This document shows, piece after piece, positions 16,701 through 26,596 of a DNA stretch of 29,388 nucleotides (position 1 is its first letter; every line of letters begins with the position of its first letter). The notes below the pieces were generated by a model. The model did no database searches. It was not told the DNA's origin and saw nothing but the letters and a program-made list of their open reading frames with translations. This DNA is from a virus. The DNA is taken from IMG/VR virus record IMGVR_UViG_3300030329_001387, positions 1-29,388 of that record; one strand, 5' to 3'. Position numbers and translations under genes: made by a program.

Positions 16701-16710
16701 TACTAAAACG
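16701..16710 (-). promoter_or_regulatory. Early leader box, copy 1 (no hairpin)
   Basis: Reads CGTTTTAGTA on the minus strand, 26 bases before the ATG of the 182-residue protein. Unlike the other 13 copies it has an AT-rich stretch upstream and not a GC-rich hairpin. Confidence 0.65.
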
Positions 16711-16725
16711 TTTTTTACTATACTC

Positions 16726-16950
16726 TTATTTACCATTCACTGCAACATCAAAATTATTTGTCTTGAGAATGCCGATGATTGGTATGTAGAAATCAGGGTT
16801 CACAATGATTGGTGAGTTGTGAATATCACTGGGGTCCTTGTATGCCCACTGTTTTTTATCAATGTTCTTGGCTATAAAACTTCTTGCTTCTGGGTCTTGT
16901 GATACCAGAGTTACAATCTCTTGTGTTTTATAAATAAATACTTGTTTCAT
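16726..16950 (-). CDS. Small hypothetical early protein
   Basis: 74 residues, MKQVFIYKTQ onward, with IGILKTNNFDVAVNGK at the end. Soluble and mixed alpha/beta; no motif recognised. Only a weak AGGA precedes the ATG. Upstream lies a hairpin followed by a U-run at 16994-16958, so it may be read through from the previous gene or have its own signal. Confidence 0.55.
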   Translation of the reverse strand: MKQVFIYKTQEIVTLVSQDPEARSFIAKNIDKKQWAYKDPSDIHNSPIIVNPDFYIPIIGILKTNNFDVAVNGK

Positions 16951-16970
16951 AATTGATTCCTAAAAAGACA

Positions 16971-16994
16971 CGGTGACCCTGTTACAGGTCACCG
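16971..16994 (-). terminator. Intrinsic terminator-like hairpin with U-run
   Basis: Arms 16971-16978 and 16987-16994 pair perfectly over eight bases with an eight-base loop. TGTCTTTTT follows on the minus strand, the best U-run of any hairpin in this region. It replaces the usual CGTNTTAGTA box at this junction. A TAA in frame with a short open stretch lies in the loop. Confidence 0.6.
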
Positions 16995-17058
16995 TTTTGC
17001 AAAAGTTCTAATAATGCAATGTCTTGGTTGAGGTTGACTAGAAAGTCACAAATTCATA

Positions 17059-17238
17059 TTATTCTTTGAACTCGTCTACGTCAATACCAAACTCAGCAGC
17101 TTTCTCAATGAGGTCTTCTTCACCCCATCCTTCTAGCCCTTGAGTCACGAGCATTTCTGTATCCTCGTAACTATCAAAACCTTTATCACGAATTGCACTC
17201 GTGATTGCTTCTGCTAGTAGTCCGATGTCTATTGCCAT
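17059..17238 (-). CDS. 59-residue acidic protein
   Basis: MAIDIGLLAE to VDEFKE, with AGGAGG four bases before the ATG and box copy 2 at 22 bases. Helical and acidic, no known motif. Good ribosome site and placement in the array support a real gene. Confidence 0.65.
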   Translation of the reverse strand: MAIDIGLLAEAITSAIRDKGFDSYEDTEMLVTQGLEGWGEEDLIEKAAEFGIDVDEFKE

Positions 17239-17260
17239 ATATCCTCCTACGACTTGTTGT

Positions 17261-17294
17261 TACTAAAACGATTAGGAGGGCGTTGCCCCCCTAA
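17261..17294 (-). promoter_or_regulatory. Hairpin plus early leader box, copy 2
   Basis: Box CGTTTTAGTA at 17270-17261. Directly upstream in the transcript, a hairpin with arms 17272-17281 and 17285-17294, ten pairs including one G-U that exists only in the minus-strand RNA. 22 bases from the box to the ATG of the 59-residue protein. Confidence 0.75.
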
Positions 17295-17302
17295 AAGTAA
17301 AA

Positions 17303-17464
17303 CTATTTACGTTTAAACATATTAAACGCTTTTTCAACAGCAGCTTGCATTGAGTCAGCAATTATTTTTTCTGCATTCTCTTTGCCATGCTTTTCTTCTA
17401 ACTTAGAAATTAGCTTTGCTCTTTCCATAGCTTTTAATCTTTTTAAGTCATTAGCCCTTGACAT
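17303..17464 (-). CDS. 53-residue helical basic protein
   Basis: MSRANDLKRL to NMFKRK, an amphipathic helical protein rich in Lys, Ala and Glu. The ATG at 17464 has AGGAG seven bases away; an in-frame ATG at 17470 is too close to the SD. It overlaps the end of the upstream gene by 14 bases. Function unknown. Confidence 0.6.
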   Translation of the reverse strand: MSRANDLKRLKAMERAKLISKLEEKHGKENAEKIIADSMQAAVEKAFNMFKRK

Positions 17465-17666
17465 TTTCATTCTCCTTTCTTTCTTCTTGTGCTAAATATT
17501 CAGCCAATATTAGGGTTCCTTCTCCTAACATTTGAGCCGTGATAGGTATGTCAAAAAGGTCAAGTGTTGTTCCACAAAGACATTTTTGTTTACCTCTTTT
17601 ATTTAACTCTACTATAAGTTCTGATTGTACTTTGAGGATTTCTAAAACCTCTTTTTTTTCAATCAT
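17451..17666 (-). CDS. 71-residue protein with a CxC motif
   Basis: MIEKKEVLEILKVQSELIVE followed by LNKRGKQKCLCG and a helical end. AGGAGG is four bases from the ATG; a TTG just before it is unlikely. One CLCG motif might bind metal. Box copy 3 lies 17 bases upstream, the shortest such leader in the array. Confidence 0.6.
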   Translation of the reverse strand: MIEKKEVLEILKVQSELIVELNKRGKQKCLCGTTLDLFDIPITAQMLGEGTLILAEYLAQEERKENENVKG

Positions 17667-17683
17667 CAAACCTCCTTTGTTGT

Positions 17684-17733
17684 TACTAATACGTTCTATT
17701 CCCTATTCCCACCCTAGGAACGGGAATGGGAAT
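17684..17733 (-). promoter_or_regulatory. Hairpin plus early leader box, copy 3
   Basis: Box CGTATTAGTA at 17693-17684. The adjoining hairpin is built of two ATTCCC/GGGAAT helices (17698-17703 with 17728-17733, and 17705-17710 with 17722-17727) separated by a one-base bulge. Confidence 0.7.
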
Positions 17734-17765
17734 GGAACATAGAAGAGGGCATAGTTGATAGTTAT

Positions 17766-18968
17766 TTAGTTAAGTCTAAAACCACACTGTGGGCATGACT
17801 GCACCACATTTGGTTCAGATTCTGGTTGTGGTTGTGGTGGCACAAAGTTTGGATAAGCAACGTTAGTTGATTGAGCAATATTACTATCAGTTAATCTTTT
17901 TAGAGTTGCTTGGTCGTAAGTGCCACGTTGAACAATGTTGTTACCATCCATTTGTGCCTGTATGTTTGCACTTGCGTTAGATGACCACAACATTGAGTTA
18001 GGTCTTACCGAAGTGTGTATCTTGGAAAGAGCATTTACATCCTTGATGTAAGACATACTTTCTTTCTCAAAATTAGCACCTTGGTCTTCCTCATCAACAA
18101 GCATCACACCATCTAATGCAGATGCCTCGTTGACTAGACCAATCAATTTCATGATGTAGTTTCTAGCCACCAAGTCTCTGCTCATGGACAAAGGTATCTT
18201 CTGATGAACATTCAAAGAATACTTGAATTGAGTATCTTCAAGAGTCATCACTGGAATACCTAGTTCATAAAGCCATGGTGTTTCTGCTTCAAAGATTTCC
18301 ACCTTTGTTTTCCTTTGTAGGTTTTTCATTGCGTTGATGCCATCAATCTCTTGCAAGACTGGAGTTGGCATTGTTACTTCAACACCGTGTTTTGACTGAG
18401 GTCTTGGAATAATCTCACCATTGACGACATAACTTATGCCTTCTGGTGGTATTACATTACTCAGCATTTCCACAGCAGTTTCAAAGTCTCCCTTCACCAT
18501 AGGTAATACAGCCTCAACCGTTGTGCCTTGGTGGTAGTTAGGGTCTTTGTGTTTAATAATATTCCTTACACCATCTTTGAAACTAACGGTGTAATTCCTA
18601 GTCTTAATCACAGCTTCCTTTGAAACAGCAATGAGTTGTTTCTCACCTGCATTGAACCTACCTGCAACAGTAGGGTCGTTTCTCTTTTCAGTAGTCCTGA
18701 AGAGAGTATAGATGTCGGTTGGGTCTTTGAAACCACCACCGTCATCTTGCACCTTAAGTTGTGCAGGTCTGTTGCCATCCTTTGTAAGTTCTACAATACA
18801 AGAGGTCGGCGTAACAGCACCTTCAACGTAGCCCAAGAATTCATCGAACACATTGGTCACTAGTTCAACTGCGTGTCTCCATGCAGGGACAGAACCAAAT
18901 AGTTCTTTGAGTCCTTTGATGTCTACTTCAAATGCAGATTTAATACTACTTACAACTTTCTTAGTCAT
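17766..18968 (-). CDS. GHKL (HSP90/gyrase/MutL-type) ATPase
   Basis: 400 residues with AAGGAGG before the ATG. Bergerat-fold motifs are plain: N-box around Asn39 (VTNVFDEFLG), G1 box VQDDGGGF at 73-80 and G2 box GRFNAGEKQL at 103-112. The middle (150-300) resembles the transducer domain of MutL/HSP90-type proteins. The last nine residues hold a single CPQC pair (Cys392, Cys395), half of a zinc ribbon. T4 rIIA carries a related ATPase domain, so a role in exclusion or host takeover is possible. No endonuclease or topoisomerase domain is visible. Confidence 0.75.
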   Translation of the reverse strand: MTKKVVSSIKSAFEVDIKGLKELFGSVPAWRHAVELVTNVFDEFLGYVEGAVTPTSCIVELTKDGNRPAQLKVQDDGGGFKDPTDIYTLFRTTEKRNDPTVAGRFNAGEKQLIAVSKEAVIKTRNYTVSFKDGVRNIIKHKDPNYHQGTTVEAVLPMVKGDFETAVEMLSNVIPPEGISYVVNGEIIPRPQSKHGVEVTMPTPVLQEIDGINAMKNLQRKTKVEIFEAETPWLYELGIPVMTLEDTQFKYSLNVHQKIPLSMSRDLVARNYIMKLIGLVNEASALDGVMLVDEEDQGANFEKESMSYIKDVNALSKIHTSVRPNSMLWSSNASANIQAQMDGNNIVQRGTYDQATLKRLTDSNIAQSTNVAYPNFVPPQPQPESEPNVVQSCPQCGFRLN

Positions 18969-18992
18969 AATTTCCTCCTTAATTATGCCCTC

Positions 18993-19029
18993 TACTAAAA
19001 CGATATCGAGGAGGCGTTTAAGCCTCCTC
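18993..19029 (-). promoter_or_regulatory. Hairpin plus early leader box, copy 4
   Basis: Box CGTTTTAGTA at 19002-18993, 24 bases before the ATPase ATG. Hairpin arms 19008-19015 and 19022-19029, eight pairs. The TAA of the 56-residue gene lies in the loop. Confidence 0.75.
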
Positions 19030-19188
19030 TACTGTAGTTACCACCCATTGATAATCAACTGGCATATTTCCACCACCAATTTTGTCAATTTCAGTTCTTG
19101 CCTCATCCCAAATATCTTTGCTTTCCAGTTCAAAAGTATCTTCATACTGTTCAGTGATAGTCCACTTGACTGTGTATTTCTTACCCAT
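19018..19188 (-). CDS. 56-residue hypothetical early protein
   Basis: MGKKYTVKWT onward, beta-rich N-terminus then a helix (SKDIWDEARTEIDKI) and a final strand QWVVTTVEEA. Its ATG overlaps the stop of the upstream gene, which provides an SD (GAGGTGA). The last codons form part of the downstream hairpin. Looks like a small alpha/beta domain. Function unknown. Confidence 0.65.
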   Translation of the reverse strand: MGKKYTVKWTITEQYEDTFELESKDIWDEARTEIDKIGGGNMPVDYQWVVTTVEEA

Positions 19189-19475
19189 TACTTCACCTCC
19201 TCTATGTCAAGTTCAGCAAAGTCTCCTGCACCTGACTTGATGAATTTAAGTTTTACCTCAAGACCCTCATAGTCTTTTACATCAAGAGTTTCATCTTTCT
19301 TGATTTCAATCCATGCACACTTAGTCATGTCAGTCTCCTGACCTTGAGCCAAATCATCACCATCTCCCCAATAAAATACTTCTTCTAGTATTCCTTTAGG
19401 TAATGGAATGTTTGAAACAATCTCATAATGTCTAGTCTGTGATTGGTACTCTTCAAGTTTGTATTTCTTAGTCAT
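19188..19475 (-). CDS. Hypothetical acidic early protein
   Basis: 95 residues when started at the second of two adjacent ATGs, which has AGGAGG at a six-base distance; the first ATG is only three bases from it. Beta-rich with conserved-looking segments KYKLEEYQSQTRHYEIVSN and CAWIEIKKDE. No known domain. Translationally coupled to the gene on each side. Confidence 0.65.
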   Translation of the reverse strand: MTKKYKLEEYQSQTRHYEIVSNIPLPKGILEEVFYWGDGDDLAQGQETDMTKCAWIEIKKDETLDVKDYEGLEVKLKFIKSGAGDFAELDIEEVK

Positions 19476-19626
19476 CATTACCCTCCTTTAGTTGCTTGTT
19501 GAGTTCATCTATTTTTTTCTGAACCCATACAACACCACGAGTATTGATAAGACTGTGAAGATTGAAAACATCAACCTCTTCTGAGATTTGTGCCATCTCT
19601 TCCAATTTTCTTTTAACATTTGCCAC
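19468..19626 (-). CDS. 52-residue helical protein (GTG start)
   Basis: V/MANVKRKLEE to KQLKEGNDD, starting at GTG with AGGAGG four bases upstream and box copy 5 at 26 bases. Mostly one or two helices with a Trp. It overlaps the next gene by eight bases. The ribosome site and box position are the main support for the GTG start. Confidence 0.6.
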   Translation of the reverse strand: MANVKRKLEEMAQISEEVDVFNLHSLINTRGVVWVQKKIDELNKQLKEGNDD

Positions 19627-19652
19627 TTTACCTCCTTGCAAACATTGTTTAT

Positions 19653-19686
19653 TACTAAGACGATAGAGGGGAGTTACCCCCTCTAT
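19653..19686 (-). promoter_or_regulatory. Hairpin plus early leader box, copy 5
   Basis: Box CGTCTTAGTA at 19662-19653. Hairpin arms 19663-19671 and 19678-19686, nine pairs. The TAG stop of the upstream gene lies inside the 5' arm. Confidence 0.75.
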
Positions 19687-19964
19687 GAATTCCTGCTTTG
19701 AACTTTTAGTTCACCATTATCACCCAATGGTACTTCAAAGAATGAAGATGGTTGTGCAGAAACTATAGCCAATGCAAAAGCCTGTCTTTCATCATCAAGC
19801 ATACTGTGATGCCAGTCTAAAGCTGTGTCGATTGCTTTGCCTATAACTTTACGAAAGTTAGGGTCAAGACCTGCCCAATTTTGGTTAGCCTCTAATTCAA
19901 GAGTCACTGCTATTCTTGTCAGGATAAATCCCAACATAAACAAATCATCTTTTTTTACATTCAT
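19683..19964 (-). CDS. Hypothetical early protein
   Basis: 93 residues, MNVKKDDLFM onward, AGGAGG before the ATG and box copy 6 at 26 bases. Mostly helical (LGFILTRIAVTLELEA, GKAIDTALDWHHSML). No motif recognised. Its stop lies in the hairpin of copy 5. Confidence 0.65.
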   Translation of the reverse strand: MNVKKDDLFMLGFILTRIAVTLELEANQNWAGLDPNFRKVIGKAIDTALDWHHSMLDDERQAFALAIVSAQPSSFFEVPLGDNGELKVQSRNS

Positions 19965-19990
19965 ACTTTACCTCCTATATGAATTATTAT

Positions 19991-20028
19991 TACTAAGACG
20001 AGACTCACAGGAGGGGCTTGTCTGTGAG
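19991..20028 (-). promoter_or_regulatory. Hairpin plus early leader box, copy 6
   Basis: Box CGTCTTAGTA at 20000-19991. Hairpin arms 20004-20010 and 20022-20028, seven pairs with a larger loop. The leader after the box (AATAATTCATATAGGAGGT) closely matches those of copies 8 and 9. Confidence 0.75.
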
Positions 20029-20037
20029 CCAAGGTTG

Positions 20038-21108
20038 TTAGGCTAGAGCAGGCTCTAGCACTGTGTTTGACAGATTTGCAACATCCCAACCGAACCTCTC
20101 AAACTCAGTAGCCCTGTCATAGTCTTCTAAGTCTTGAGATGTCCTTGTTACAGCGTTTGTAAGTCCCCATTTAGTTGTGTCACCACCTTTGATTAAGTGG
20201 TTTAATACTGAGTCTTTCTCATCATCTGTAAACTTAAACTGTTTCTGTATTATTTCAACAGCATCGATAGGCTTTGCTATCTCAGTTTCTGTAGTTTTCC
20301 TGAGTTTTCCCAACACATTATTGAACCCTTCACTTGACAATACATTTCTCACTACATCTTGCACCTGACCAACCAAAGCATCGCTTGTTTTGTTCAGTGT
20401 GTCTCTGCTGAGTAAGTCTGTGATGTCATGCGAAGAACCAATGTGTCTTCTTTTGAAAGATGTTTCTGCAATCATACCGTTCATGCAAACTAATCTCTCG
20501 ATGAATGCTTGAACATTTACAGAACCAAATCCAACTTCTGAATTACTTACAATTACACCACCTCTGACAACATCACCCTTCTCAATCTCACCTGTAAGTT
20601 TGTCAGTTACAGCTTTGATGTAGAGTTTTTTCTCAGTAACATTGGATGAGATAATTTCTAGTTTCTCATCAAACATTACAGGCAACACAGCCTCGGCGAC
20701 ATCTTCATTATCAAAAGTCAGATACTTGTTGGACAAGTCAGCCCTCATCAAATCCCAGACAGTTGAACCGTCTGATTGATAAGTTCTAATCATTCTTTTG
20801 TTTTGAGTTTGTCCTAGCCAGTTGTTAACATTTTCTGCTAACAATACTGGGTTGTTGTTCATTACTCTTTCGTAGTAAGCGTAAGGAATTTGCAACCTTG
20901 TTGCTAGTTGTCTGTGTGCAGTGGGTGTAATCTCCATTTGCTTTGAGTCATCAATACTCATCAAGACTGGTGCATTAGTTGTTACATCGTCTTGTTCAAC
21001 TGGAAGTAATTGCATACTTCTGCTGTCCACGACCATGTCAACTTTTTTCTCTGCTTGGTCTGTAATTTTCTGTGCTAACTCATTTATGTTTAATCCTAAT
21101 TTTGGCAT
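20038..21108 (-). CDS. DUF932 protein
   Basis: 356 residues with AAGGAGG before the ATG. The DUF932 hallmarks occur in order: ITPTAHRQLATRLQIPYAYY (60-79), NVNNWL, the LSNKYLTFDNEDVAEAVLP segment (125-143), GVIVSNSEVGFGSVNV (184-199) and RLVCMNGMI (205-213). The family is common in phages and plasmids and its biochemical role is not established. Family assignment is secure; function is unknown. It has its own leader box (copy 7) and the preceding gene ends in a hairpin. Confidence 0.88.
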   Translation of the reverse strand: MPKLGLNINELAQKITDQAEKKVDMVVDSRSMQLLPVEQDDVTTNAPVLMSIDDSKQMEITPTAHRQLATRLQIPYAYYERVMNNNPVLLAENVNNWLGQTQNKRMIRTYQSDGSTVWDLMRADLSNKYLTFDNEDVAEAVLPVMFDEKLEIISSNVTEKKLYIKAVTDKLTGEIEKGDVVRGGVIVSNSEVGFGSVNVQAFIERLVCMNGMIAETSFKRRHIGSSHDITDLLSRDTLNKTSDALVGQVQDVVRNVLSSEGFNNVLGKLRKTTETEIAKPIDAVEIIQKQFKFTDDEKDSVLNHLIKGGDTTKWGLTNAVTRTSQDLEDYDRATEFERFGWDVANLSNTVLEPALA

Positions 21109-21142
21109 CTATGCCTCCTTTTGATGCCCCTCAATTTTTTAT

Positions 21143-21182
21143 TACTAAAACGATAGACTAGGTGGAGGACTCAACCTCCACC
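21143..21182 (-). promoter_or_regulatory. Hairpin plus early leader box, copy 7
   Basis: Box CGTTTTAGTA at 21152-21143, 34 bases before the DUF932 ATG. Hairpin arms 21161-21168 and 21175-21182, eight pairs. The whole hairpin is coding: it specifies the last seven residues of the 99-residue protein and the TAG follows directly. Confidence 0.75.
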
Positions 21183-21457
21183 TTCTGTAAGTTTTTGAGT
21201 CGTTTCTTAGCACCTTTTTGCACAAGTTTAGTCCACTCAATGAGTCTTTCTAAAGCCTCAATGTCATCTGTAAAATACATTTTCAATTGTGTATAATACT
21301 TTGATGAAGTCAACATTATACTTGTAGGGTTTTCAACTCTCAACTCAAATACATTCCAGTCCTTGTCAATATTGTGAAATATATTTTTGTCCCTAGACCC
21401 AAATAAATCACCTCTGCTTTCAAGCAAAATGTTGTTTTCTTTTTCTTTTGTACTCAT
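21158..21457 (-). CDS. Hypothetical early protein
   Basis: 99 residues, MSTKEKENNI onward, AGGAGG before the ATG and box copy 8 at 32 bases. Beta strands NVFELRVENPTSIMLTSSKY and a basic helix WTKLVQKGAKKRLKNL suggest a small alpha/beta protein. No known family. Its C-terminal residues are encoded by hairpin 7. Confidence 0.65.
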   Translation of the reverse strand: MSTKEKENNILLESRGDLFGSRDKNIFHNIDKDWNVFELRVENPTSIMLTSSKYYTQLKMYFTDDIEALERLIEWTKLVQKGAKKRLKNLQKVEVESST

Positions 21458-21489
21458 ATTATTACCTCCTATATGAATAATTTATTTAT

Positions 21490-21527
21490 TACTAAAACGC
21501 TGTTGAGCAGGAGATTTACTCCTGCTC
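21490..21527 (-). promoter_or_regulatory. Hairpin plus early leader box, copy 8
   Basis: Box CGTTTTAGTA at 21499-21490. Hairpin arms 21505-21513 and 21519-21527, nine perfect pairs with the TAA of the upstream gene in the five-base loop. Confidence 0.8.
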
Positions 21528-21680
21528 CTCAATGTTCACAATATCTTTGTCGGTTAATTCAATATTGTACTCCTCTGAAAAATTATCTTTTACATTTTGG
21601 ATAAATTCTTCTTTGGTTTCTCCATAACCACTTTCTGCAAATGATAACTTTATTTCACAGAACCATTCTTTCTCATCCAT
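21516..21680 (-). CDS. 54-residue acidic protein
   Basis: MDEKEWFCEI to NIEEQE. AGGAGG precedes the ATG, and box copy 9 lies 33 bases upstream. A beta strand, a helix (KEEFIQNVKDNFSEEY) and a final strand. Function unknown. The leader is nearly identical to that of the 99-residue gene, suggesting duplication of the leader. Confidence 0.65.
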   Translation of the reverse strand: MDEKEWFCEIKLSFAESGYGETKEEFIQNVKDNFSEEYNIELTDKDIVNIEEQE

Positions 21681-21713
21681 ATTAATACCTCCTTATATGA
21701 ATAATTTATTTAT

Positions 21714-21750
21714 TACTAAAACGAAACCGAGCAGGGGTTTAGCCCTGCTC
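21714..21750 (-). promoter_or_regulatory. Hairpin plus early leader box, copy 9
   Basis: Box CGTTTTAGTA at 21723-21714. Hairpin arms 21729-21736 and 21743-21750, eight pairs with the TAA of the upstream gene in the loop. Its arm sequence GAGCAGG is shared with copy 8; copy 10 shares GCAGG and adjoining bases. Confidence 0.8.
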
Positions 21751-22116
21751 TGGATTGTTTACTTCTTTGATTGTGTCAATGTCTGGGGTGTCTGGTTTCT
21801 CAGTCTTCATTGAAACTGTAGAGATTTCATCAATCCCTGACATTGGATTTATAAACCCAAAGATTTTTATGTCACCTTTGAATTTGTATATTTCAACCAT
21901 GTCATTATAAATGCCATTAGCCCATCTTTCTTGCATTGTATTGCCCTGCTCATCTGTCCAAGTGTCTTGGTCTTTATTGTAGTTCCAAGCCATTTTGTCA
22001 GTGTCAGTGACAAATCCATCGTCATCAAAAATAAATAGCATATCTTCAATGCCACCGTTTTCAATGCCACTTGCTATAGCCTCACCGAGTCTTTGGTTTC
22101 TAATTGCTTTATTCAT
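21739..22116 (-). CDS. Hypothetical early protein
   Basis: 125 residues, MNKAIRNQRL onward, GAGGAGG before the ATG and box copy 10 at 28 bases. Trp/Tyr/Asp-rich middle (DKMAWNYNKDQDTWTDEQGN), acidic overall. No family recognised. Ends Glu-Gln-Gly, these codons being the 5' arm of hairpin 9. Confidence 0.65.
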   Translation of the reverse strand: MNKAIRNQRLGEAIASGIENGGIEDMLFIFDDDGFVTDTDKMAWNYNKDQDTWTDEQGNTMQERWANGIYNDMVEIYKFKGDIKIFGFINPMSGIDEISTVSMKTEKPDTPDIDTIKEVNNPEQG

Positions 22117-22144
22117 AATATCCTCCTCTATGAATAATTGTTTT

Positions 22145-22173
22145 TACTAAGACGGCAGGGTCATCAACCCTGC
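22145..22173 (-). promoter_or_regulatory. Hairpin plus early leader box, copy 10
   Basis: Box CGTCTTAGTA at 22154-22145. Hairpin arms 22155-22161 and 22167-22173, seven pairs. Two consecutive TGA stops of the 27-residue gene lie in and beside the loop. Confidence 0.75.
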
Positions 22174-22247
22174 TCTTTTAAGATTGTGAAAATAGAATTA
22201 TCACTGACAACTATATTTCCTGTATCATTAATAGACACTTCAATCAT
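22164..22247 (-). CDS. 27-residue microprotein
   Basis: MIEVSINDTGNIVVSDNSIF and seven more residues ending EQG, followed by two TGA codons. AAGGAGG precedes the ATG, and it is bracketed by box copies 10 and 11 just like the longer genes. That framing is the main reason to call it. Predicted beta hairpin. Function unknown. Confidence 0.55.
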   Translation of the reverse strand: MIEVSINDTGNIVVSDNSIFTILKEQG

Positions 22248-22274
22248 TTTAACCTCCTTGATTAAAGTTAGAGT

Positions 22275-22313
22275 TACTAAAACGAGGTTGAGAGGGGCAT
22301 CCCTGCCCCTCTC
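22275..22313 (-). promoter_or_regulatory. Hairpin plus early leader box, copy 11
   Basis: Box CGTTTTAGTA at 22284-22275, 27 bases before the microprotein ATG. Hairpin arms 22290-22299 and 22304-22313, ten perfect pairs with a four-base loop. Confidence 0.8.
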
Positions 22314-22318
22314 ACTAT

Positions 22319-22678
22319 CTAAAGATAAAGTGGTGGTGGGTATCCTAAACCTCCTGCTTTAGCTTTACCCCACAATAAAAGTCTTATGTAGTGAAATGCT
22401 TTTTCATCTTTGCCACCGATATGCCACATATCAATATCTTCTTTATCTAAACCATCAACTGGGTCGTAATTCTTTCCGGTTTTATAGTTGTAAATTGTTG
22501 CAACTGTTTTGTCAGGAAATTCAAATGCCCATTCGCATAGTATTTTTGCATCTGCACTCTCACCCAAATGTTCTTTCCCAAACACTGAAACAAGTTTTTC
22601 ATAGGATATTTTTACATGCCCAATAAAACTTGTTCCATTGACTTCAAAAGTTGGCTTGATTGTGATTTCTGTTTCCAT
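22319..22678 (-). CDS. Hypothetical early protein
   Basis: 119 residues from the ATG at 22678 (METEITIKPT), which has GGAGG eight bases upstream; an ATG further upstream would run through this SD. Beta-rich N-terminus (FEVNGTSFIGHVKISYE), then KILCEWAFEFPDKTVATIYN, a possible small alpha/beta domain. Family not recognised. Confidence 0.65.
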   Translation of the reverse strand: METEITIKPTFEVNGTSFIGHVKISYEKLVSVFGKEHLGESADAKILCEWAFEFPDKTVATIYNYKTGKNYDPVDGLDKEDIDMWHIGGKDEKAFHYIRLLLWGKAKAGGLGYPPPLYL

Positions 22679-22709
22679 GATTAAATCCTCCTTCATCATG
22701 ATTATTTTT

Positions 22710-22746
22710 TACTAATACGATTTATTGGGGGGCATTTCAGCCCCCC
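22710..22746 (-). promoter_or_regulatory. Hairpin plus early leader box, copy 12
   Basis: Box CGTATTAGTA at 22719-22710, 31 bases before the ATG. Hairpin arms 22727-22733 and 22740-22746, seven pairs, six of them G-C in one run. Confidence 0.75.
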
Positions 22747-22752
22747 ATATTG

Positions 22753-23115
22753 TTAGGGTTGTATCTGTTTATCATATTGCTGAATAACTCTTCTTGCCTC
22801 ATTCTTAGCTGTTTCAATAAACAGTCTTTTTATTTCTGCCCTGAATTGTCGCCTTGTCTTTGGTATTTCATTGACCTTCATACCGATACAACTTTTAACC
22901 ATTTCTAAAGTTGGGTATTCAGGTTTCTCTTCTGAACCAAGAAACATAAATGCCATTTTAGTTTCAATAAGAATTTTATTTCTCAAGTAAACCTCATGGT
23001 AATTATCTTTGGTAATTTCTTGGTAACCTCCGAACATTGCATTAAAACCAAGTAATTTTTCTAAGTCTGAAATTCCTTGTTTTTCTTTGTTTGGGCTTTC
23101 AATTATTAATGACAT
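22753..23115 (-). CDS. Hypothetical early protein
   Basis: 120 residues from the ATG giving MSLIIESPNK, which has AGGAGG four bases upstream. A longer reading through the leader box would ignore that SD and start without one. C-terminal basic helix (RRQFRAEIKRLFIETAKNEA). Family not recognised. Confidence 0.65.
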   Translation of the reverse strand: MSLIIESPNKEKQGISDLEKLLGFNAMFGGYQEITKDNYHEVYLRNKILIETKMAFMFLGSEEKPEYPTLEMVKSCIGMKVNEIPKTRRQFRAEIKRLFIETAKNEARRVIQQYDKQIQP

Positions 23116-23141
23116 AAATCCTCCTTCTGTCATTGGTTTAT

Positions 23142-23187
23142 TACTAAAACGGTAACGGTTGGAGGCTTGCGAAACCCCAACCGTTAC
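23142..23187 (-). promoter_or_regulatory. Hairpin plus early leader box, copy 13
   Basis: Box CGTTTTAGTA at 23151-23142, 26 bases before the ATG. Hairpin arms 23152-23162 and 23177-23187, eleven perfect pairs, directly abutting the box. Confidence 0.8.
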
Positions 23188-23194
23188 AATCAAA

Positions 23195-23389
23195 CTAAAC
23201 TTTGCTAGTCTGAACTAAATTGCAAAACATACACTTAGTCGTTGCAGTTTTGTAATTTTCAACTTTCCCATTCTCATACTTTTTTGAGAAACTATTTATG
23301 TCGCCAATAATTTCACTGACTGGGTGAGAACAATTGTATTGTCCCCAAGTGAATTGTTTTGGGTGGTCTTTAACTATAAATGCTACCAT
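23195..23389 (-). CDS. 64-residue zinc-binding-type protein, first gene of the early array
   Basis: MVAFIVKDHP onward with AATGGAGG before the ATG. Cys20 and His22 in NCSHP plus the pair Cys53/Cys56 in KCMFCN could hold one zinc. It is the gene nearest the leftward promoter and directly follows the structured leader, so it should be among the first early proteins made. Function unknown. Confidence 0.65.
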   Translation of the reverse strand: MVAFIVKDHPKQFTWGQYNCSHPVSEIIGDINSFSKKYENGKVENYKTATTKCMFCNLVQTSKV

Positions 23390-23416
23390 TTATTCCTCCA
23401 TTGTTAATTTATTTAT

Positions 23417-23457
23417 TACTAAGACGAAACCAAGCGACAATTTGGAGGGTCGCTTGG
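23417..23457 (-). promoter_or_regulatory. Hairpin plus early leader box, copy 14, at the end of the structured leader
   Basis: Box CGTCTTAGTA at 23426-23417, 27 bases before the first early gene. Hairpin arms 23430-23438 and 23449-23457, nine perfect pairs. Four bases of the 5' arm (23454-23457) can instead pair with 23676-23679 as part of a long-range helix. Confidence 0.75.
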
Positions 23458-24160
23458 CTTTGTCGTGGGTTCTTTCGTTTCGGTTTATTAAACTTTGAAT
23501 TTAATCCAAGGCTTGCGACTTGGAACCATACACCTCCCACAGTTTCGGCTTCATTCCTGACTTTCACAGTTGTTCACTTAGTAATTTGTTTCAATAACCT
23601 AGACTTGAAAACATAATCAAATAATTACCCTTGGATAAATATCTTTTCTGTAACAAGTAACCACTACACGACCAGCCAACCTCAACGATTAAATAATAAT
23701 GTAGCTTTGTATTTTACTTTTAGTTATTTACTTAAGAGAGCTTTTCTCATTCAACTCAATTTGTAGATGTTGCGTATTGCTTGTAATAAAAATCCTTCGG
23801 ACTATCTCAGCAGGGCAATGCCACGCCCTCCATAACCGAAATGCTGTGTATTCAACTAATGACCCAAGGGTCAACAGTCTTTTATTCTGTGACCAGTTCA
23901 CAGCACCCAAGTTTGAACATACCTGCAGGGACTACAATAGCCCCCCTCTTGGAAATTCAGTGCCTCAACAACTCGGAAACGTTTGCATTTATCTACAGTC
24001 TAGGAAGTTCATTTGAGTTCACCGAATTACTCGGCTTCTATGACTTCCCCCCCCTGCCGTTTCATGTTGCCCCCACTTGTCAGGGTTCAAGCCTGACTCC
24101 TAAGCCTTCCATGTTTGCTCAGTCCCTGAGGGTCTAACAACCTACCAACAACAACCACTC
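23427..24160 (-). ncRNA. Candidate large structured noncoding RNA (about 735 bases)
   Basis: No credible gene: short open frames on both strands lack ribosome sites and do not look like proteins. Local hairpins: 24079-24084/24092-24097, 24003-24008/24043-24048 (continued by 24010-24012/24040-24042), 23928-23934/23938-23944, 23887-23892/23898-23903, 23860-23864/23869-23873, 23812-23816/23825-23829, 23791-23795/23799-23803, 23589-23594/23605-23610, 23505-23510/23519-23524. Longer-range helices: 23991-23997/23762-23768, 23913-23918/23850-23855, and a three-part helix 23454-23459/23674-23679, 23462-23467/23667-23672, 23468-23471/23659-23662. Several pairings contain G-U on the minus strand that would be A-C on the plus strand. 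Size and phage setting recall GOLLD and ROOL RNAs; membership is unproven. Confidence 0.6.
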
Positions 24161-24165
24161 CGTTA

Positions 24166-24195
24166 ATAGTAACACCATATAAATTAATATGTCAA
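24166..24195 (-). promoter_or_regulatory. Strong sigma70 promoter for the leftward early region
   Basis: On the minus strand, a perfect -35 TTGACA at 24195-24190, an 18-base spacer and an extended -10 TGTTACTAT (hexamer TACTAT at 24171-24166). Transcription would begin near 24159 and run through the structured leader into the early genes. It is the only near-consensus host-type promoter I found in the window. Confidence 0.7.
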
Positions 24196-24263: not shown

Positions 24264-24782
24264 ATGACTATGAGCAGAAAAATACAGTTAGATAATAAAA
24301 AGATAGAGTTAATCAAGCAGGATATAGAACGGCTTGGATTACACCCTACAAGTGCCATAATAAGACGCTGTGGGGTTTCTGAGTCTGTTGCTATGGGTTG
24401 GCTCCGTTTTGGTGAAAAAGTCCGTGTAACATTAGATACTGAAACTGATACAGATACTATAGATACTGTAACAGTAACAGATACTAAGAATCTGAACCCT
24501 AGTGACAGATACAAGCAACTGACACTGAAATTACATGATACAGTAACTGAGGCTGTAACTGAGTTTGAAGCGTTACAGTTAACGGAATTAACGACTGCAG
24601 AGAATGAAGCTGTTAAAAGTAAAAATAGCCAGTGGCTTCTGTCTAAAAAATATCCTGACAGATACGGTGACAATAAGAACCAAACCACAATTGACGACCA
24701 AGCCAATGCACTAATCCAAGCATTAATTAACATAAATGTGCCAATCTCCGAAGATAAAAAGCCAATAGAGGACACGGCGTAA
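24264..24782 (+). CDS. Small terminase-like DNA-binding protein
   Basis: 172 residues. A helix-turn-helix is likely at about 14-48 (IKQDIERLGLHPTSAIIRRC then GVSESVAMGWLRFGEKV). A Thr/Asp-rich linker (about 55-76, coded by short GATACT-like repeats) and a helical oligomerisation-type C-terminus follow. The order small terminase, large terminase, portal is standard, so DNA recognition for packaging is the likely role. No SD is visible before either ATG (24264 or 24270). Its TAA sits at a hairpin. Family assigned mainly by context. Confidence 0.6.
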   Translation: MTMSRKIQLDNKKIELIKQDIERLGLHPTSAIIRRCGVSESVAMGWLRFGEKVRVTLDTETDTDTIDTVTVTDTKNLNPSDRYKQLTLKLHDTVTEAVTEFEALQLTELTTAENEAVKSKNSQWLLSKKYPDRYGDNKNQTTIDDQANALIQALININVPISEDKKPIEDTA

Positions 24783-24800
24783 CGCTGTATAAAACGCCGT
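24774..24800 (+). terminator. Hairpin at the small terminase stop codon
   Basis: ACGGCGT (24774-24780) pairs with ACGCCGT (24794-24800), seven pairs, and the stop codon begins in the 5' arm. No U-run follows. Possibly limits read-through into the gap. Confidence 0.45.
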
Positions 24801-25177
24801 AACACATTCTAAACTCAGATAGGACAAAATTCCAAACAGTTGGGAATCATTCCAAACTAAAGAGGGACATTCTCAAAAGCATTCTAAATAACAAAATGGG
24901 AACGAATGGGAACGTAAGGCACAATGAGGCATGATACCCCCCAAGCCCCAAAAGCCCGTCTATGAGCCTCTGAGAGCCTCTGAGAGGTGCGTATGATTCG
25001 GATTCGGAAAAAAAAATGCGTGTGGTGGGGTGGATGGGTGGTGGTGGTTGCTGGGTGGTCTGGCTGTCATCGGTATCATCGTGTCGGTGTCAATGTGTCG
25101 GCTGCAAGGGGGGTGGTTCTTGTGGTCGCTTGCTGGTCTGTGTCTGTGGTACTACCTCCTGTAAATTTTATGCTAAA
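24801..25177 (+). repeat. Repeat-rich noncoding gap before the large terminase (candidate packaging site)
   Basis: Five CATTCT/CATTCC-like units, most followed by AAA, at 24805, 24828, 24848, 24868 and 24880. A tandem AATGGGAACG pair lies at 24895-24914, a tandem GAGCCTCTGA pair at 24964-24983, and a tandem GATTCG pair at 24995-25006. From 25014 to 25140 the plus strand is strongly G/T-rich with few A or C. Reading frames through it give Gly/Cys/Trp-rich nonsense. Repeats between the terminase genes are where pac or cos recognition sites are often found; assignment is inference. Confidence 0.5.
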
Positions 25178-25186
25178 ATGTGTCTC

Positions 25187-26596
25187 ATGATACATGAACA
25201 ACGTGATGCCCTATTCGGAGCCATAGGTTACAAGCCTACGGCTGCACAGCTTGAGATACTCAATGATGATGCTAGATTCAAACTGGTTGCCGGTGGCGTG
25301 AGAGCAGGTAAGTCCAATCTTGGTGCTATGTATATGTTTGAAAAGATAATGTCCAAGATTGTAGAAGACCCTGATGCTGCTTCGGGCAGTGTCTATTGGC
25401 TAGTTGCTGCAGATTACGAAAGAACTAGGGGTGAGTTTGACTATCTTGGAGATGCCTTCAACAGGCTAGGTATAATTAAACGTGCCACACGTCAGGTTGA
25501 CCCCGGATACATCGAGGTGTCCGTTGGTTCTAAGAACCTAAAACCGTTGATAATCAAGACTAAGTCTGCGACTGACTACAGAAAACTTGCGATGGAAGCC
25601 CCGATGGGCATCGTTGCTTGTGAGGCTTCGCAGTTAGACCAAGAAAGTTACTGGCGATTGATGGAAAGAGTGGCAGAAAAGCGTGGTTGGGTATTCCTAG
25701 AAGGTACTTTTGAGGGTAGTCTAGGATGGTACCCCCAACAATTTACGTCATGGCAATCACCGGGTATCCAAAATTTAGAGAGTGCAAAAAGTTTTTCACT
25801 ACCTACATGGACTAATACGCATATATTTCCGTTGGGAGAGCACGACCCTGAAATAGAAAAGATGAGAACTGAACATTCCGAGGAGTGGTTTAATGAACGT
25901 GTCGCCGGAATCCCGAGTCCTCCGAGTGGATTGGTGCATCCGTCATTCAATGTAAACGTTCATGTAAGAGAAGTTGTGTATGACCCAGACGAAATTGTGT
26001 ATCTTGCAGTTGACCCGGGTTATTCTAGGATGACCGAAAGTGCGTATGCCGTTGAGGTGTGCCACATAATCGATGGGCAAGTGCAGGTATTTGACGAAAT
26101 TTACGAGAGAGAATTGATTGCTTCCGACATTATTGAGGTAGCAAAGAAAAGATTTTGGTGGCAGAACACGGATAAGTTTGGCGTGATTGACGTTGCAGGA
26201 AATGCACACGCTGGAGCCATGCCATCAAACACTGAAATATGGTTTAAAGAAGCGAATATAATTATGCAAAGCCAGCCCGTAAAGATTATTGACGGTATTG
26301 AGAGAATGAACAGCATGCTTAAGCCAGACCCGATAGACTTAGAGCCCGGATTAGTCATTGACCCTACTTGCAAAGGACTGATTTCTGAACTTGGAGGAGG
26401 ACCAAATCCGTTTGACGGACAGGTCAGAGTTTACAGTTGGCAGATGAACCGAGAGGGTGGGGTAGTTGGAAATGTTCCAAGAGACAAGTATAATCATGCT
26501 GTAAAGGCATTAACTTATCTGATGGTAAATCAGTTTGGATATGCCGGTAATGAAAACTATTCAAGGGAGATTATCCCAGTGACGAGATTTAGATAA
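25187..26596 (+). CDS. terL: Large terminase subunit (ATPase and nuclease)
   Basis: 469 residues from the ATG giving MIHEQRDALF; ATG at 25178 is an alternative. Walker A GGVRAGKS lies at 36-43, and the acidic Walker B-type strand IVACEA at 142-147 with Glu146. FLEGTFE near 180 is the coupling region. The C-terminal nuclease half starts with YLAVDPGYS and continues with the strand FGVIDVAGN, typical of the RNase H-like terminase domain. It drives DNA into the prohead and cuts it. No SD precedes the start; TGCTAAAAT just upstream could be an extended -10 giving a nearly leaderless message. The stop overlaps the portal ATG. Confidence 0.85.
   Translation: MIHEQRDALFGAIGYKPTAAQLEILNDDARFKLVAGGVRAGKSNLGAMYMFEKIMSKIVEDPDAASGSVYWLVAADYERTRGEFDYLGDAFNRLGIIKRATRQVDPGYIEVSVGSKNLKPLIIKTKSATDYRKLAMEAPMGIVACEASQLDQESYWRLMERVAEKRGWVFLEGTFEGSLGWYPQQFTSWQSPGIQNLESAKSFSLPTWTNTHIFPLGEHDPEIEKMRTEHSEEWFNERVAGIPSPPSGLVHPSFNVNVHVREVVYDPDEIVYLAVDPGYSRMTESAYAVEVCHIIDGQVQVFDEIYERELIASDIIEVAKKRFWWQNTDKFGVIDVAGNAHAGAMPSNTEIWFKEANIIMQSQPVKIIDGIERMNSMLKPDPIDLEPGLVIDPTCKGLISELGGGPNPFDGQVRVYSWQMNREGGVVGNVPRDKYNHAVKALTYLMVNQFGYAGNENYSREIIPVTRFR

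Follow-up and report, generated by a model that had tools for sequence, protein, structure and literature searches.

Between the early genes and the packaging genes of a tailed phage, a stretch of about 735 nt on the minus strand (23427–24160; start inferred from the promoter, end from a hairpin) is predicted to encode a structured noncoding RNA. The element keeps its position, its promoter sequence and its strand among relatives, its helices covary, and its domains are modular. Judged from sequence, we consider it rather likely that the element defines a new family among the large structured phage RNAs, is a stand-alone gene and acts in trans. The original prediction had placed a large structured minus-strand RNA at the head of the early genes, and covariation in 12 distinct sequences bears this out.

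A conserved noncoding element at the early/packaging junction

The window analyzed here, i.e., the whole stretch of DNA, is the IMG/VR virus record IMGVR_UViG_3300030329_001387 (29,388 bases). The presence of TerL, a DnaC-like loader, a PD-(D/E)XK exonuclease and a DUF932 protein identifies it as a tailed phage, with a TerL less than 60% identical to that of every named phage; a TerL scan found no relatives in the bacterial genomes scanned. Late genes occupy the plus strand as far as ~11.6 kb, the early genes are read leftward on the minus strand from 23389 to 11742, and terS (24264–24782) followed by terL (about 25190–26596) run rightward, with the RNA stretch lying between the first early gene and terS. 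No tRNA genes are present in the window. The gap between terS and terL (24783–25189) holds a further ~400 noncoding bases, which are G-rich with GGTGGT runs and have a strongly conserved end; this gap shows no conserved fold (z −0.3) and is possibly the packaging site.

The same element is found at the same junction, between the leftward early genes and terS, in 14 IMG/VR contigs of one marine phage clade. Fourteen contigs cover the junction fully and three partially, yielding 12 distinct full-length sequences including the window, and every clade contig that spans the junction carries the element. Scans of viral contigs with TerL, TerS and two RNA patterns all return this one small clade and no such RNA outside it; the confinement of all homologues to a single phage clade weighs against the trans-acting reading. 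BLAST of the element against phages and plasmids gave no match, and in bacterial genomes a conserved 19-nt pattern has six matches that look like chance, none of them with a homologous 3′ domain. When L026 was left out of the covariance model for the 3′ domain, the model still hit that sequence, weakly (E 0.47) but exactly at the syntenic place. No ORF in the element is kept across homologues: in line with the original view that the stretch holds no credible gene, its ORFs are lost in the relatives, and the coding explanation was rejected on this ground.

On the minus strand, a TTGACA −35 box (24190–24195) is followed after 18 nt by a TACTAT −10 box (24166–24171), the promoter that had been proposed ahead of the RNA. 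The −35 box is present in all homologues (as TTGACT in L012 and L043), the −10 box becomes a perfect TATAAT in L026, and 17–19 nt separate TTGACA from the TATAAT-like box across the homologues. In sequence, this is a conserved sigma-70-type promoter. The transcripts predicted in relatives measure about 690–840 nt, and in the window the stretch closes, as foreseen, at a hairpin (23457–23430).

Covarying helices of a minus-strand RNA

Single-sequence fold energy is modestly better than chance, and is weak evidence taken alone. Folding of 23400–24180 gives a z of −3.2 on the minus strand and −0.9 on the plus strand, while the predicted transcript alone gives minus-strand values of −0.8 to −3.9 in the 12 homologues, below the plus strand in 10 of them. 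The decision therefore rests on covariation. Because the homologues share ancestry and some helices were selected visually in the alignment, the shuffle counts given below are not probabilities; the argument is carried by controls in which the pairing partner was slid and by the number of independent replacements.

The 3′ domain is closed by the covarying helix H4 (23465–23540, minus strand), GUGGG/CCCAC in the window, which is rebuilt as AUUGAU/AUCAAU in L041, GUUGAU/AUCAAC in L025 and L019, and GCUAUU/AAUAGC in L026. Hairpin H5 (23505–23524, minus strand) carries a GCAA tetraloop whose closing pair is C-G, G-C or U-A. Across the 26 pairs of this domain, 93.1% of cells are paired, compared with at most 43% when the partner is slid, and 10 pairs are changed on both sides; the covariation score is 0.298 against 0.136 in shuffles, with none of 500 shuffles as high, and the alignment folds with a z of −4.5 (−5.7 without L026). 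Further upstream in the RNA, helix H3 (GCUACAU/GUGUAGU; 23663–23705, minus strand) closes a large loop in which the conserved GUUGAGRUUG (23686–23674) lies, and is rebuilt from other bases in L014, L019 and L041. The block AAGUCAGGAAUG (23552–23563, minus strand) is identical in all 12 sequences, and no conserved pairing partner was found for it. The minimum free energy fold also pairs CCUGAC over a long range with the AAGUCAGG block, a helix that was discarded as it is lost in subgroups B and C and in L026.

In the middle domain, 95.6% of the cells of 19 pairs are paired and seven pairs are changed on both sides, again with none of 500 shuffles as high. Helix Pd (GGGGCUA/UAGUCCC; 23928–23944, minus strand), which the original prediction had listed, shows compensatory changes to GAAGCUA/UAGUUUC in L009 and AUGGCU/AGUCAU in L019 and keeps its G-U pair in all sequences. 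The covarying helix Pa (23841–23906, minus strand), formed by GUGCUGUG (23906–23899) and CACAGCAU (23848–23841), encloses hairpin Pb (23860–23874, minus strand), which covaries and has a CUUG loop, and hairpin Pc (AGGGC/GCCCU; 23812–23829, minus strand) covaries to AAGGG/CCCUU in L019. GUUCAA (23918–23913) may pair with UUGAAU (23855–23850, minus strand) and, as these strands cross the covarying Pa, would form a pseudoknot; this previously listed helix is kept nearly unchanged, with one mismatch in L019, and its near-invariance leaves it unproven. Not all of the hairpins first listed are conserved: the one at 23791–23803 was rejected since L019 cannot form it. The proposed three-segment helix of 16 pairs around a domain of about 220 bases could not be matched to any helix conserved beyond the closest relatives. 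At 23797–23809 lies UGAGAUAGUCCGA, which is kept in L019 and resembles the S element of group I introns. A group I intron, considered for the resemblance of AGAUAGUCC to that element, was dropped, as no Rfam intron model matches.

The 5′ domain is closed by P1 (24065–24139, minus strand), in which UGUU (24139–24136) pairs with AACA (24068–24065) and CCCUC (24132–24128) with GGGGG (24074–24070). Compensatory changes convert the former into UGAU/AUCA or UGGU/ACCA, so that the variable pair is U-A, A-U or G-C across three subgroups, and the latter into CCUUC/GGAGG. This domain holds further compensatory changes beyond those of the 3′ and middle domains.

In the helices of the 3′ and central domains, G-U occupies 14 cells and A-C two, which fits a minus-strand RNA, the orientation claimed at the outset. 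The same bias points to RNA when a transcribed replication origin or DNA-level element is considered, i.e., a structured RNA primer or a fold on single-stranded DNA. Although the element lies at the divergent early/packaging junction near the point where cumulative GC skew is lowest, gene direction accounts for the skew flip equally well, and to our knowledge a structured primer RNA such as ColE1 RNAII has not been described for such phages; we regard an origin as highly improbable.

Exchange of domains and of the downstream gene

Closely related sequences differ by whole blocks of the element. L012 and L043 are 97–100% identical along most of it and 32–52% identical in the 5′ domain, whereas the window and L014 are 93–95% identical in most of the 5′ domain, mostly 92–95% in the 3′ domain, and 18–42% in the middle. 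These local drops between otherwise near-identical relatives argue that whole structured domains are exchanged within a constant frame. Swaps of this kind between close relatives resemble immunity-type exchange, which speaks for a rival reading in which the RNA regulates phage genes by antisense pairing like the P4 or P1 immunity RNAs. However, the genome offers no long complementarity to the element, with only shared words of chance size (13–14 nt), and an antisense regulator, to which we assign a very small probability, was rejected for this reason.

The first downstream gene is also exchanged: at least four unrelated kinds occur across the homologues while the RNA is retained. The main rival to a stand-alone, trans-acting RNA holds that the element is a very long structured 5′ leader that controls the early operon in cis, through attenuation, antitermination or a CCUCC loop in the 3′ hairpin H6 that masks the first Shine-Dalgarno site. 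The first early gene does follow the element directly, on the same strand, and no strong separate promoter was found for that gene (best match 9/12), so the RNA would be at least part of the primary leader. Yet a constant downstream gene, the mark of a single-gene cis-regulatory leader, is not seen here, the unrelated downstream genes argue against a leader dedicated to one gene, and known cis-regulators make do with less than these several elaborate domains.

H6 itself (23430–23457, minus strand) bears on both readings. All 12 sequences carry CCUCC in its loop, with a GGAGG-type site downstream; this holds even in L019 and L026, where the stem is wholly replaced, which makes pairing with a Shine-Dalgarno site possible, in cis or in trans. 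Directly after H6 stands CGTCTTAGTAATAAA (23412–23426, minus strand), the first in a series of motif copies. These copies of CGTNTTAGTA(A), about 14 in all, are distributed over 16710–23426 on the minus strand ahead of early genes, and none occurs on the plus strand; all but one have a GC-rich hairpin just upstream, and a GGAG-type site lies just downstream. Motif and hairpin together may terminate transcription, direct processing or bind a regulator. Since only a weak U-tract follows H6 and other early genes are preceded by the same combination of hairpin and motif, H6 may not end a separate RNA; at the same time, its being a generic early-gene element speaks against a dedicated leader. Weighing these points, we consider the cis-acting leader unlikely, and a stand-alone RNA remains our preferred reading.

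Relationship to known large RNAs

GOLLD (RF02032) is phage-borne and often above 800 nt, has marine examples, lies usually but not universally near tRNA genes, and features a homo-oligomeric RNA nanocage. ROOL (RF03087), also phage-borne, measures about 660 nt and contains many helices and pseudoknots, and the pRNA of phi29 is a structured phage RNA of about 170 nt linked to packaging. The present element is far larger than the pRNA, runs away from terS and has no Rfam match: cmscan with all 4,227 Rfam families returned nothing at gathering thresholds and nothing meaningful at permissive E-values, GOLLD and ROOL included. In ten of these records, no hit to the GOLLD or ROOL model scored above 10 bits, the ROOL search being one without a positive control. 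The earlier suggestion that the RNA may be a new class thus stands.

With ROOL the element shares the phage setting, a similar size and many helices, but it matches no ROOL model and has no tRNA neighborhood. Like GOLLD it is phage-borne and of comparable size, and it combines a conserved 3′ region with a variable 5′ region, as described for GOLLD (PMC12286853); this likeness is an analogy only, as the element has no sequence or structure match to GOLLD and sits, without a tRNA neighborhood, between early genes and terS. Were the element a far-diverged GOLLD or ROOL, its size, its phage setting and the GOLLD-like distribution of conservation would be accounted for, but given the negative searches (no cmscan match at permissive E-values, targeted models at 10 bits or less) and a window without tRNA genes, we judge such descent very improbable. 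In phage ICP1, the most abundant transcript is a noncoding RNA of roughly 800 nt (PMC7567579), similarly large, ORF-less and not tied to a tRNA cluster; that RNA differs in adjoining the lysis cluster and in having its expression shown, and its sequence was compared here by phage BLAST only, with a negative result. Being long and noncoding with helices that covary across homologues, as large structured phage noncoding RNAs are, the element appears to be a relative in kind, not in descent, of GOLLD and ROOL.

Other structured elements at the same junction

Phages whose TerL is about 50% identical to that of the window have roughly 500–1,180 noncoding bases at the same junction, with no sequence similarity to the RNA. 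Three such junction groups have conserved folds of their own on the minus strand (z −3.6 to −10), which suggests that the early/terS junction is a hot spot for structured RNAs.

Upstream of terS in L129, L128, L107, L104, L098 and L116 lies a different conserved structured element (e.g., L129:1425–1969, minus strand), consisting of a long hairpin, a TATAAT and then an RNA of ~105 nt closed by CCGGGGAG/CUCCCCGG; its alignment has a z of −10, and no Rfam match was found in the loci searched. L118 and L110 share ~300 conserved noncoding bases upstream of terS on the minus strand, with a predicted fold of z −3.6 from two sequences only, and L110:4086–4141 (minus strand) resembles a type III hammerhead ribozyme with a complete core (31 bits, below the gathering score). 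In L095, L103 and L094, the region upstream of terS carries ACTGTACAT-type repeat arrays that look like operator or iteron sites.

A model for the RNA

In our model, a host-type RNA polymerase would start the RNA early in infection, on the minus strand of the divergent early/packaging junction. In the folded transcript, P1 would close the 5′ domain; Pd, Pa, Pb, Pc and the likely pseudoknot would lie in the central domain; the H3 domain would display GUUGAGRUUG; and H4 would close the 3′ domain. Termination or cleavage at H6 would release it, with some transcripts reading on into the early genes, and the free RNA may then work in trans, either as an architectural RNA or as an RNA-protein particle, comparable to the abundant giant RNAs of other phages. 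Separate accumulation, trans action and particle formation are what we infer. Stated in full, the element would be an undescribed class of giant phage RNA with a constant frame (promoter and 5′ end, GUUGAGRUUG helix, AAGUCAGGAAUG and 3′ domain) and exchangeable 5′ and central domains, serving as a scaffold or cage in trans, while other lineages of the wider family carry different structured RNAs at the same spot; we hold this fuller version with about even confidence.

Only a handful of giant structured RNAs are known from bacteria and phages, and what GOLLD and ROOL do is still an open question. With its natural swaps of domains between nearly identical phages, an independent family of this size would provide ready-made comparative experiments on the roles of such RNAs, and suggests that more such RNA families exist outside Rfam in marine phages.
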